This document shows positions 46,792 through 50,623 of a DNA stretch of 64,000 nt, in pieces. Below the pieces are notes generated by a model. That model did no database searches, was not told where the DNA came from, and saw only the letters and a list, made by a program, of their open reading frames with translations. Location of the stretch: assembly GCF_003990445.1 (NCBI RefSeq), contig NZ_REEZ01000011.1:90289-154288 (forward strand), in the 5' to 3' direction. Position numbers and translations under genes: made by a program. This DNA is from Pararhodobacter zhoushanensis. Its GTDB lineage: Bacteria; Pseudomonadota; Alphaproteobacteria; Rhodobacterales; Rhodobacteraceae. Positions within the stretch are counted from its first letter, which is position 1, and each line of letters begins with the position of its first letter.

Positions 46792-48468
46792 ATGACCTTC
46801 AAGACCGACATCGAAATCGCGCGCGCGGCTCACAAGAAGCCGATCCTTGAGATAGGCGAAGCACTGGGGATCCCCGCTGCCGAGCTTCTGCCCTATGGCC
46901 ACGACAAGGCGAAAGTCAGCCAGAGCTTCATCAATGGTCTGGCGGATCGCCCCGATGGCAAGCTGATCCTTGTGACGGCGATCACCCCGACCCCCGCCGG
47001 TGAGGGCAAGACGACCACGACGGTGGGGCTGGGTGACGGGCTGAACCGGATCGGCAAGAAGACGGTGATCTGCATCCGCGAGGCCAGCCTTGGCCCCAAC
47101 TTCGGCATGAAGGGCGGGGCGGCGGGGGGCGGCTATGCGCAGGTCGTGCCGATGGAAGAGATGAACCTGCATTTCACCGGCGATTTCCACGCGATCACCA
47201 GCGCGCATAACCTGCTCAGCGCGATGATCGACAACCACATCTATTGGGGTAACGGGCTGGAGATCGACGAGCGCCGCGTGATGTGGCGCCGGGTGATGGA
47301 CATGAACGACCGCGCGCTGCGCGATGTGGTGACCAGCCTTGGCGGCGTGTCCAACGGCTTTCCGCGCCAGACCGGATTTGACATCACCGTCGCGTCCGAG
47401 GTCATGGCGATCCTCTGTCTGGCGAAGGATCTGGCCGATCTGCAGCGCCGTCTGGGCAATATCGTCGTCGCCTATACCCGCGACCGCACGCCGATCACCT
47501 GCCGCGACCTCAAGGCCGATGGCGCGATGACGGTGCTGCTCAAGGACGCGATGCAGCCCAATCTGGTGCAGACGCTTGAGAACAACCCGGCCTTCGTCCA
47601 CGGCGGCCCGTTTGCCAATATCGCGCATGGCTGCAACTCGGCCATTGCCACGCGCACGGCGTTGAAGCTGGGCGAGTATGTCGTGACCGAGGCCGGCTTT
47701 GGCGCGGATCTGGGGGCCGAGAAGTTCTTTGACATCAAGTGCCGCAAGGCCGGTCTGACGCCTGCTGCCGCTGTCCTTGTCGCCACGGTGCGGGCGATGA
47801 AGATGAACGGCGGCGTCGCGCGCGCCGATCTGGGCGTTGAAAGCGTCGAGGCCGTGGAGAAGGGCTGCGCCAATCTGGGCCGTCACCTTGAGAATGTGAA
47901 AAGCTTCGGCGTGCCGGTGGTGGTGGCAATCAACCATTTCCATTCCGACACCGAGGCCGAGCTGCAGGCGATCAAGGATTTCGTCGCCACGCAGGGGGCC
48001 GAGGCGATTGTGTGCACCCATTGGGCCGATGGCTCGGCGGGGATGGAAGACCTGGCGCACAAGGTCGTGGCGATGGCCGACTCCGACGCGGCCAATTTCG
48101 CGCCGCTCTACCCCGACGACATGAGCCTGATGGACAAGATCGAGACCATCGCAAAGCGCATCTACCGTGCCGACGGGGTGATCGCCGATACCACGGTGCG
48201 CAACCAGCTCAAGACCTGGGAGGCGGCGGGCTATGGCCATCTGCCGGTCTGCATGGCCAAGACGCAGTATTCCTTTACCACCGACCCCAACGTGCGCGGC
48301 GCACCGACCGGGCACTCGTTCCCGGTGCGCGAGGTGCGCCTGTCGGCAGGGGCCGGGTTCATCGTGGCGATCTGCGGTGAGATCATGACCATGCCGGGCC
48401 TGCCGCGCAAACCGGCGGCGGAAACCATCGGCATCAATGATGACGGCTTTGTCGAAGGGCTGTTCTGA
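46792..48468 (+). CDS. fhs: Formate--tetrahydrofolate ligase
   Basis: 558 residues, full length. ATP-binding [19 protein letters not shown] near 65-83, [22 protein letters not shown] near 97-118, and [15 protein letters not shown] near 377. It makes 10-formyl-THF from formate, THF and ATP, or runs in reverse to yield ATP and formate. First gene of fhs-folD1-chorismate mutase-folD2. In roseobacters such clusters accompany oxidation of methyl groups (DMSP, glycine betaine, methylamines); none of those genes is in the window. GGGGAGAC precedes the ATG. Confidence 0.96.
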
Positions 48469-48526
48469 CACATCCACAGCCGGGCAGGGGCAGCCCCCGC
48501 CCGGCGCTTAACTCCGAGGATAGCAG

Positions 48527-49423
48527 ATGAAAACTGACGGGATCCGGGCAGCCCTGATCGACGGAAAGGCCATCGCCGCCAAGATGCGCACCGAGACGGC
48601 TGCCGAAGCGGCTGAGCTGGCGGCACTGGGCTGGCAGCCCCGGCTGGTGTCGATCACCGTCGGCGATGGTGCGGCCTCCGAGGTCTATGTGCGCAACCAG
48701 CAGCGCACCGCCGAGAATGCGGGGGTCGAGTTTGAGGCGCGCACTTACCCCGAGACCATCTCGATGGAACAACTGGTTGGCGTGCTGCAAGGCCTGAACG
48801 CCGATCCGCGCGTCAACGGCATCATCATCCAGCGCCCGCTGCCCGCGCATATCCCGGTGAAAACGCTGCAAAAAGCCGTGCATCCGCTCAAGGATGTCGA
48901 GGGGATGCACCCGGCCTCGATCGGCAATATCGTCTATAACGATCTGGCGCTGGGGCCCTGTACCGCCGTCGCTGCGGTCGAGATTCTGAAAACCCTGCCG
49001 CTGAAGATCGAGGGGCTGGATGTCACCGTCATCGGCCATTCCGAGATCGTCGGCAAACCCATCGCCTTTCTGCTGATGAGCCTTGGCGCGACGGTCACGG
49101 TCTGCCACCACATGACCCGCTCGGTCGCCATGCACTCGCGCGCGGCGGATGCGGTGTTCGTGGCGGTCGGCAAGCCGGGTCTGGTGACGGGCGACATGCT
49201 CAAACCCGGTGCGGCGCTGATCGACATCGGTATCAACCGGGTCGATGGCAAGACGGTCGGTGACGCCGATTTTGACAGCTGCGCCAAGGTCGCCGGGTGG
49301 CTGACTCCGGTGCCGGGTGGCGTGGGGCCGGTGACGGTGGCAACGCTGATGAAGAACGCCGTGCTGGCGACCCGGCTGCAAATGGCGCATTACCGCGCCG
49401 AATACGCGCTGACCGATGTCTGA
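48527..49423 (+). CDS. FolD-like protein with substituted catalytic residues (FolD1)
   Basis: 298 residues with both FolD domains, including the NAD(P) motif GHSEIVGKPIAFLL and the C-terminal [15 protein letters not shown]. Active site compared with the well-known FolD layout: Tyr54 is kept, but the catalytic lysine four residues later is Gln58 (YVRNQ instead of YVxSK). Gln102 is kept (IIIQRPLP), while the DVDG aspartate is Glu125 (KDVEGMHP). In human MTHFD1 the lysine is required for the cyclohydrolase step, so this protein may be a dehydrogenase only, or act on another C1-folate. Follows fhs by 58 bases and overlaps the next gene by 8. Confidence 0.88.
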   Translation: MKTDGIRAALIDGKAIAAKMRTETAAEAAELAALGWQPRLVSITVGDGAASEVYVRNQQRTAENAGVEFEARTYPETISMEQLVGVLQGLNADPRVNGIIIQRPLPAHIPVKTLQKAVHPLKDVEGMHPASIGNIVYNDLALGPCTAVAAVEILKTLPLKIEGLDVTVIGHSEIVGKPIAFLLMSLGATVTVCHHMTRSVAMHSRAADAVFVAVGKPGLVTGDMLKPGAALIDIGINRVDGKTVGDADFDSCAKVAGWLTPVPGGVGPVTVATLMKNAVLATRLQMAHYRAEYALTDV

Positions 49424-49736
49424 GGCGCTGCCGCTGCCCGAGGCGGTGCAGACGATGGCCGAACTGCGCGGCTGCATCGACACGCTCGACGACCAGCTGA
49501 TGGGGATTCTGGCCGCGCGGCTGGCCTATGTCGACCGGGCGGCGGTCCTGAAGGCACGCGAAGGGATTGCCGCCGCCGCGCCATCCCGCGTGCAAGCGGT
49601 GGTGGACCGGGTCCGCGCGCGGGCCGAGGTCACCGGCTTTGACCCCGATATCGCCGAAGCGATGTGGCGGGTGATGATCGAACAGCTGATCGCGCGCGAA
49701 GCGCGGGTCTTGGGACATAACGGGAGGGACGCATGA
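49416..49736 (+). CDS. Chorismate mutase, AroQ class (PchB-like)
   Basis: 106 residues, all-helical AroQ fold. Compared with E. coli chorismate mutase and PchB, the active-site arginines and lysine are conserved (Arg18, Arg35, Lys46, and Arg58 in PSRVQ). The Gln88 position of the E. coli enzyme is Glu95, a variant seen in other chorismate mutases. Isochorismate-pyruvate lyase activity is an alternative because PSR-V resembles PchB. Overlaps folD1 by 8 bases and folD2 by 4, so it is translationally locked between them. Why an aromatic-pathway enzyme sits in a C1-folate operon is not clear. Confidence 0.85.
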
Positions 49737-50623
49737 GCGCCACCATCATCGACGGAAAAGCCTTTGCGGCGACAGTGCGCGCACAGGTGGCCGAGCATGT
49801 TGCGCTGCTCAAGGCCGATCACGGGCTGACGCCGGGACTGGCCGTGGTGCTGGTCGGCGAAGATCCGGCGTCCGAGGTTTATGTCCGCTCCAAAGGCAAG
49901 CAGACGACCGAAGTCGGGATGAACTCGTACGAGCACAAGCTGCCGGCGGATACGTCTGAGGCTGATCTGCTGGCGCTGATTTTCCAGCTGAACGCCGACC
50001 CGGCGGTCAACGGGATTCTGGTGCAATTGCCGCTGCCGGATCATCTGGACAGCGATCTGGTGATCAATGCCATCGACCCGGCCAAGGATGTGGACGGGTT
50101 CCATATCTCGAATGTCGGGCTGTTGGGGACGGGTCAGAAGTCGATGGTGCCCTGCACGCCGCTGGGATGTCTGATGATGTTGCGGGCGCAGCTGGGCTCG
50201 CTGTCGGGCCTGAATGCGGTGGTCGTGGGGCGCTCGAACATCGTCGGCAAGCCGATGGCGCAGCTGCTGCTGGGTGACAGCTGCACGGTGACGATTGCGC
50301 ATTCGCGCACCAAGGATCTGGCCGAGGTCTGCCGGGGCGCGGATATTCTGGTGGCGGCGGTCGGTCGTCCCGAGATGATCCCGGGCGACTGGATCAAGCC
50401 GGGGGCGACGGTGATCGACGTGGGCATCAACCGGATCGAGCGGGACGGCAAGAAGACGCTGGTCGGCGATGTCGCGTTTGCCAGCGCGGCCGCCGTGGCC
50501 GGGGCGATCACCCCGGTGCCGGGCGGGGTGGGGCCGATGACGATTGCCTGCCTGCTGGCCAATACGCTGACGGCGACGTGCCGGGCGAACGGGTTGGCCG
50601 AGCCGCAGGGGTTGACGGCCTGA
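49733..50623 (+). CDS. folD: Methylenetetrahydrofolate dehydrogenase / methenyltetrahydrofolate cyclohydrolase
   Basis: 296 residues and canonical: Tyr50 and Lys54 (YVRSK), Gln98 (ILVQLPLP) and Asp121 (KDVDGFH) fall at the same numbers as in E. coli FolD. NADP site [16 protein letters not shown]-terminal [16 protein letters not shown]. It interconverts 5,10-methylene-THF, methenyl-THF and 10-formyl-THF. With Fhs it links formate to C1-folates. This copy supplies the cyclohydrolase that FolD1 probably lacks. Last gene before paired palindromes. Confidence 0.96.

Follow-up and report, generated by a model that had tools for sequence, protein, structure and literature searches.

A FolD paralogue of Alphaproteobacteria with replaced active-site lysine and aspartate, a probable monofunctional methylene-tetrahydrofolate dehydrogenase

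The gene folD1 is one of two folD genes found close together in a 64,000-nucleotide stretch of DNA from Pararhodobacter zhoushanensis (contig NZ_REEZ01000011.1, positions 90,289–154,288; the whole stretch is hereafter called the window). Judged by its sequence and phylogeny, its product FolD1 is an old paralogue that forms a real subfamily of FolD, in which the catalytic lysine and the pterin-binding aspartate are replaced by glutamine and glutamate. Most probably (at about 0.68) FolD1 is a monofunctional 5,10-methylene-tetrahydrofolate (methylene-THF) dehydrogenase that serves in the oxidation of methyl groups, while an ordinary FolD carries out the cyclohydrolase step.

As can be seen from the alignment with E. 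coli FolD, Gln58 of FolD1 occupies the position of Lys54 and Glu125 that of Asp121, while Tyr54 and Gln102 correspond to the unchanged Tyr50 and Gln98. These assignments had been made in a sequence-only reading of the window and are borne out by the translated reading frame and the alignment. The codons quoted there are correct for residues 57–59 (AAC CAG CAG) and 124–125 (GTC GAG), but residue 126 is encoded by GGG and not by GGC. A third constant substitution, Leu99 to Arg103, had been overlooked. FolD1 carries both Pfam domains PF00763 and PF02882 over their curated cut-offs and thus belongs to the FolD / MTHFD superfamily; its AlphaFold model (mean pLDDT 89.4, confident) has the FolD fold. 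It departs from bifunctional FolD in the catalytic lysine (E. coli Lys54), in the pterin-binding Asp121 and in its score against the curated NCBIfam FolD model. It falls below the cut-off in all the NCBIfam models listed (25 of 30 matched), the best score being 295.3 bits against 421. The carboxylate at the Asp121 site is preserved in FolD1 as that of glutamate.

A genome scan confirmed 497 stretches, of which the 80 best serve here as the close relatives of FolD1; deeper relatives (54–69% identity) come from further genomes and two named plasmids. The final residue count comprises 305 FolD rows, or 293 distinct sequences, with one short row and the plasmid set L220–L236 excluded. The Gln and Glu pair is present in 81 of 81 sequences (FolD1 of the window and 80 close orthologues), while Lys and Asp are found in all 81 FolD2-type rows (FolD2 of the window, a third FolD of the same genome and 79 loci). 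In the whole set, 123 distinct FolD1-type sequences, 49–100% identical, have Gln54, Arg99 and Glu121 (E. coli numbering) throughout; the 170 others all combine Lys54 with Asp121 and vary at residue 99 (Leu, Phe, Met or His), and there are no intermediates. The suspected co-occurrence of the Lys-to-Gln and Asp-to-Glu replacements therefore holds without exception in the 293 distinct sequences, within a single clade. A sequencing error or a private mutation, the latter considered in the sequence-only reading, is ruled out by the identity of these residues in 123 of 123 sequences.

Further changes are fixed in the same 123 sequences, namely Val38 to Ser and histidine as residues 167 and 191; the histidines, at positions where other FolDs have mostly Arg and Ser, hint at an altered 2'-phosphate site. 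A serine corresponding to E. coli residue 47 (human Ser49) is present in 169 of 170 Lys-type sequences; it is lost in 113 of 123 FolD1-type sequences but retained in FolD1 of the window. Tyr50, Gln98 and the glycine loop are unchanged in 123 of 123, and Pro100, Ser168 and Gly172 in 117 of 117. Over 117 rows the glutamine is encoded by CAG in 92 and CAA in 25, and the glutamate by GAG in 79 and GAA in 38. Such silent variation at fixed residues is as purifying selection would leave. It is extremely improbable that FolD1 is an enzymatically dead protein kept for regulation or binding: its key residues are indeed altered, but the changes are specific and constant, the six conserved elements just listed are kept and the residues are held in spite of silent codon change.

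In a tree of 110 rows (44 FolD1-type and 66 others) a single branch, supported at 100/100, divides the FolD1-type sequences from all others, and a quick tree built without 10 trait columns gives the same division. In this tree, read without a root and possibly subject to long-branch effects, the FolD1-type sequences have a long stem and stand apart from the FolD2 of Alphaproteobacteria, so FolD1 is not a recent FolD2 duplicate. The identity of only 41.3% between FolD1 and FolD2 of the window likewise rules out a recent copy.

The meaning of the changed residues can be judged from the homologous enzymes. For the human enzyme a structure paper names seven key residues, namely Tyr52, Lys56, Gln100, Leu101, Asp125, Gly273 and Gly276 (PMC3368264). 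Three of the seven, Lys56, Leu101 and Asp125, are altered in FolD1 (the numbering is transferred by alignment). The human K56Q variant is said to be dehydrogenase-only; a literature search found no paper naming K56Q. The E. coli K54N variant is reported to retain ~19% of the dehydrogenase activity with undetectable cyclohydrolase activity, and the second (cyclohydrolase) step also proceeds spontaneously according to the same authors (PMC5688156). Retention of the dehydrogenase and loss of the cyclohydrolase is a direct prediction from these published data on lysine loss and active-site residues. FolD1 should still oxidise methylene-THF to methenyl-THF, since the fold, the substrate-stacking tyrosine, the glutamine and the nucleotide-binding domain are kept. 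Position 125 of these enzymes is described as an aspartate with an invariant carboxylate (PMC6443876); FolD1 retains the carboxylate but not the aspartate. Arg103 and Glu125 would together form a re-set pterin pocket, in which the positive charge has left the helix residue and now lies next to the glutamine. Leu101 and Asp125, both changed in FolD1, are listed in the human enzyme as key to substrate binding and catalysis (PMC3368264), and a pocket re-shaped by Glu125 and Arg103 might accept another pterin or one-carbon carrier. We consider this very improbable, as the telling neighbours described below (Fhs, FolD2 and Tdm) are tetrahydrofolate enzymes.

At least one further FolD is present in all 46 FolD1-bearing genomes (19 of the Rhodobacterales sample, 4 and 23 others). 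Lys and Asp are found in 39 of 39 partner FolDs that were read, those of G096, G111, G136, G521, G525, G539 and G584 being unread; the window's FolD2 has both residues, as the sequence-only reading had stated. The ordinary FolD is likely the partner of FolD1. The sole FolD1 partner found in genome G161 is a divergent FolD (L180, contig C6, 5031–5915, minus strand) with glutamate at the Gln98 site, located near ribF-like and isoleucyl-tRNA-synthetase-like genes (assigned by reading the sequence). The cyclohydrolase FchA (PF04961) was found in 0 of 149 Rhodobacterales genomes, the window's own included, with a control search positive in 2 of 14, which rules it out as the partner of FolD1 in this order.

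FolDs encoded next to FchA were compared in a set of 17 plasmid-record sequences, ten obtained with FolD1 as the query and seven with a Collinsella FolD that had itself been found beside FchA. The lysine is absent from all three FolDs beside FchA (Ala in Collinsella, Ile in Nonomuraea and Embleya) and from one of the 14 others (Ala in Acetoanaerobium; Fisher p 0.006). Arginine at position 99 is also found in the Collinsella and Acetoanaerobium FolDs. In these few sequences lysine loss thus coincides with a separate cyclohydrolase, and Arg99 seems not to make up for the lysine, since the Collinsella FolD with Ala54 and Arg99 lies beside a separate cyclohydrolase gene. FolD1 resembles these FchA-adjacent FolDs in the lost lysine and the changed residue 99 (Arg or Thr in theirs). 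Unlike FolD1, with its glutamate and no FchA in Rhodobacterales, they keep Asp121 and adjoin a dedicated cyclohydrolase-family gene. FolDs without Lys54 occur in Actinomycetota and Bacillota as well (L226, Collinsella; L231, Nonomuraea; L232, Embleya; L230, Acetoanaerobium); that of Collinsella carries a bifunctional annotation. In Peptoclostridium FchA is located in a histidine-degradation cluster, on a stretch without an annotated folD.

It is possible, though unlikely, that FolD1 is still bifunctional, with a site rebuilt from Arg103 and Glu125 in place of Lys54 and Asp121 and perhaps with other kinetics or another cofactor. The three substitutions always occur together, like compensating changes, Arg103 puts a positive charge beside Gln102, and the depositors' name is bifunctional in both annotated records. 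However, the Collinsella FolD combines Ala54 with Arg99 and still adjoins a separate cyclohydrolase gene, FolD1 was in no case seen to replace the ordinary FolD (46 of 46 genomes have another), and loss of Lys54 removes the cyclohydrolase of E. coli FolD (PMC5688156). Among the three functions proposed in the sequence-only reading, a specialised dehydrogenase is best supported, namely by E. coli K54N, the constant second FolD and the lysine loss in FolDs beside FchA; a partner subunit and a different folate find no positive support beyond the gene neighbourhood and the pterin-site changes.

In the window folD1 belongs to a group of four co-directional genes (46792–50623; Table 1). The 309 bases from the folD1 stop to the folD2 start are filled by the gene of a chorismate mutase. 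A single scan for sites resembling promoters and terminators gave 1 and 0, with no excess over shuffled sequences. The third FolD of this genome is encoded on another contig and is 87% identical to FolD2.

Table 1. Genes of the folD1 locus and the codons of its substituted residues (window positions)
Feature	Position	Strand	Evidence
fhs, formate--tetrahydrofolate ligase, 558 aa	46792..48468	+	PF01268 E 1e-269; NCBIfam NF010030 928 bits vs cut-off 652
folD1, 298 aa, FolD paralogue with Gln58, Arg103, Glu125, His171, His195	48527..49423	+	both Pfam FolD domains, alignments
Gln58 codon CAG, at E. coli Lys54 / human Lys56	48698..48700	+	Gln 123/123 FolD1-type vs Lys 170/170 others
Arg103 codon CGC, at E. 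coli Leu99 / human Leu101	48833..48835	+	Arg in 123/123 FolD1-type
Glu125 codon GAG, at E. coli Asp121 / human Asp125	48899..48901	+	Glu 123/123 FolD1-type vs Asp 170/170 others
type II chorismate mutase (CM_2), overlaps ends of folD1 and folD2	49416..49736	+	PF01817 E 5.1e-18
folD2, 296 aa, ordinary FolD with Lys54, Leu99, Asp121	49733..50623	+	NF010785 503 bits vs cut-off 396; residues read

The 80 near loci include fhs in 76 cases, folD2 in 79 and a chorismate mutase gene in 51; three of the four loci without fhs end at a contig edge. Their common order is tilS, ftsH, (MOSC), fhs, folD1, folD2, and among the 70 longer ones tilS and ftsH are found in 62 (assigned by reading the sequences) and MOSC in 41. 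The chorismate mutase gene precedes folD1 (Fhs-CM-FolD1-FolD2) in 45 of 80 loci and lies between folD1 and folD2 in 4 of 80; its link with the one-carbon genes is, to judge from these gene orders, a lasting one. One record entitled Exiguobacterium profundum chromosome (metagenome-assembled genome, CP059262.1; L058) contains a Rhodobacterales fhs-folD1-folD2 locus with 84–88% identity to the window and looks mislabelled. The neighbourhood is different in 29 more distant loci (10–15 kb), where fhs is found in 4 and no FolD2 in the fetched stretch of 25. A strict tie of FolD1 to fhs is thereby ruled out, and the proposed clade adjoining fhs holds for the close relatives but for few of the distant ones. 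The same counts bear on a mixed dimer of FolD1 and FolD2, in which one active site would be dehydrogenase-only and the other bifunctional. FolD is dimeric (PMC5688156) and folD1 adjoins folD2 in 79 of 80 close relatives, but the two proteins of the window share just 41.3% of residues and most distant loci (25 of 29) have no FolD2 within the fetched stretch, so that we give such a dimer little probability.

The proposed role of FolD1 in oxidising the methyl groups of methylated compounds is suggested by the context of its deep branch, with trimethylamine N-oxide (TMAO) demethylase (Tdm) and N-methylglutamate clusters, and is extended to the branch of the window with its fhs and folD2. In 6 of 9 Rhodobacterales genomes of the deep branch FolD1 lies 1.8–3.5 kb from the TMAO demethylase and 7–9.5 kb from GmaS (start to start); the Tdm of L095 scores 1207 bits, above its curated cut-off of 1100. 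In genome G427 (L108) FolD1 is followed by amidotransferase-like, FwdC-like and glutamate-synthase-like proteins and by a glutamine synthetase of type III, a set that may be read as MgsABC-GmaS. The best PDB matches are 7cql, which we take to be GmaS, and 9qur, named glutamate--methylamine ligase. The annotated order on a Ponticoccus plasmid is formate dehydrogenase, fhs, folD, FolD1, tdm. At L122 and L123 FolD1 is found next to fhs-folD2 and to a molybdopterin oxidoreductase scoring below every cut-off; other neighbours are glycolate oxidase GlcF (L125, L126) and a BCCT transporter (one named plasmid record). Among the loci listed, FolD1 often stands without telling neighbours. In Ruegeria pomeroyi Fhs is required for oxidation of the choline methyl groups (PMC4744692), and ftsH is among the neighbours of the two R. 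pomeroyi fhs copies (PMC4744692, figure legend).

Genome searches for GmaS (E <= 1e-100) and Tdm (E <= 1e-150) gave GmaS in 10 of 19 FolD1-bearing and 40 of 130 other Rhodobacterales genomes (p 0.055), and Tdm (>= 53% identity) in 9 of 19 and 27 of 130 (p 0.016). The signal originates from the deep branch, with 8 of 9 genomes for each protein. A strict tie of FolD1 to methylamine use is therefore rejected. A Tdm paralogue of 41–48% identity was seen in G001, G045, G049, G033, G061, G065, G069 and others, also where there is no closer Tdm; its alignments begin only at residue 125–180 in 8 of 11 rows. In G098, of the window's genus, contig C49 (217677–244303) carries another copy of fhs together with a FolD beside Tdm, with GmaS ~20 kb further on. 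This FolD is 46% identical to FolD1, in the ordinary range, with its residues unread; either type of FolD may therefore serve in TMAO clusters.

FolD1-type genes were found in 19 of 149 Rhodobacterales genomes, 21 of 337 Alphaproteobacteria (excluding G149, 47% identity, residues unread) and 15 of 397 Pseudomonadota, every one of the last alphaproteobacterial; the residues were read in all carriers of the three samples. The carriers are spread patchily over 12 family-level groups of Alphaproteobacteria, a pattern that probably reflects gene transfer or repeated losses. Outside this class no FolD1 was confirmed among the 397 Pseudomonadota, where four hits of family f194 include one that has Lys and Asp (L127) and three unread. 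Phyla beyond Pseudomonadota were sampled via plasmid records alone, and the limit of E <= 1e-75 misses matches far below 50% identity.

Taken as a dehydrogenase-only enzyme, FolD1 would lose the cyclohydrolase step together with the lysine, as E. coli K54N does. Methenyl-THF would then be hydrolysed by the ordinary FolD, present in every carrier examined, with the aid of spontaneous hydrolysis, and 10-formyl-THF would be converted into formate and ATP by Fhs running backwards. For the window's organism, glycine, choline and serine are candidate methyl sources. Several points weigh against this assignment. In the human enzyme the lysine is seen mainly as a binding residue of the dehydrogenase step, its catalytic role in the second step being not excludable (PMC9173628), and if this is so the dehydrogenase of FolD1 may be weakened too. 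Arg103 could replace the lysine, and the ever-present partner FolD could merely mark FolD1 as an accessory gene. The FchA set is small and non-random with flanks of 0.6–3 kb, its three positives are all Actinomycetota and two of them closely alike, and the Acetoanaerobium FolD has no lysine, yet the FchA examined in that case lies elsewhere, beside formiminotransferase-like and imidazolonepropionase-like genes. The near branch is not enriched for GmaS (2 of 10) or Tdm (1 of 10), and neither was detected in the window's genome at the limits given above. No assay of a FolD1 was found in the open-access literature.

Compared with the bifunctional FolD / MTHFD enzymes (E. coli FolD, human MTHFD1 and MTHFD2), the FolD1 type is distinguished by Gln for Lys54, Arg for Leu99, Glu for Asp121, Ser for Val38 and His at 167 and 191. 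Yeast MTD1 (PDB 1edz), a monofunctional NAD-dependent methylene-THF dehydrogenase, is distant (E 3.7e-12 against <= 1.1e-45 for the other 26 hits). To our knowledge neither the FolD1 clade nor its set of residues nor its association with a bifunctional FolD has been described before, while monofunctional methylene-THF dehydrogenases as a kind are already known. The open-access literature gave no description of the subfamily, in a search made noisy by the common word 'fold', so that absence is not proven. A wider picture is tentative and somewhat short of even odds: Alphaproteobacteria would split folate oxidation between a dehydrogenase-only FolD paralogue, probably NAD-linked and catabolic, with the charge moved from position 54 to 99, and an ordinary FolD acting as cyclohydrolase. 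This arrangement would be convergent with, and independent of, the Lys-less FchA-adjacent FolDs of Actinomycetota, and would tune methyl oxidation apart from the formyl-THF supply.

FolD is generally regarded as a conserved enzyme with two activities and as a target for drugs. FolD1 should be insensitive to carolacton, as E. coli K54N is reported to be (PMC5688156), and it offers a natural test of the role of Lys54. The subfamily extends over 12 family-level groups of one class and is still annotated as bifunctional in two annotated records; metabolic models that describe how Alphaproteobacteria of sea and soil use methylated amines and choline would give FolD1 the wrong second reaction.
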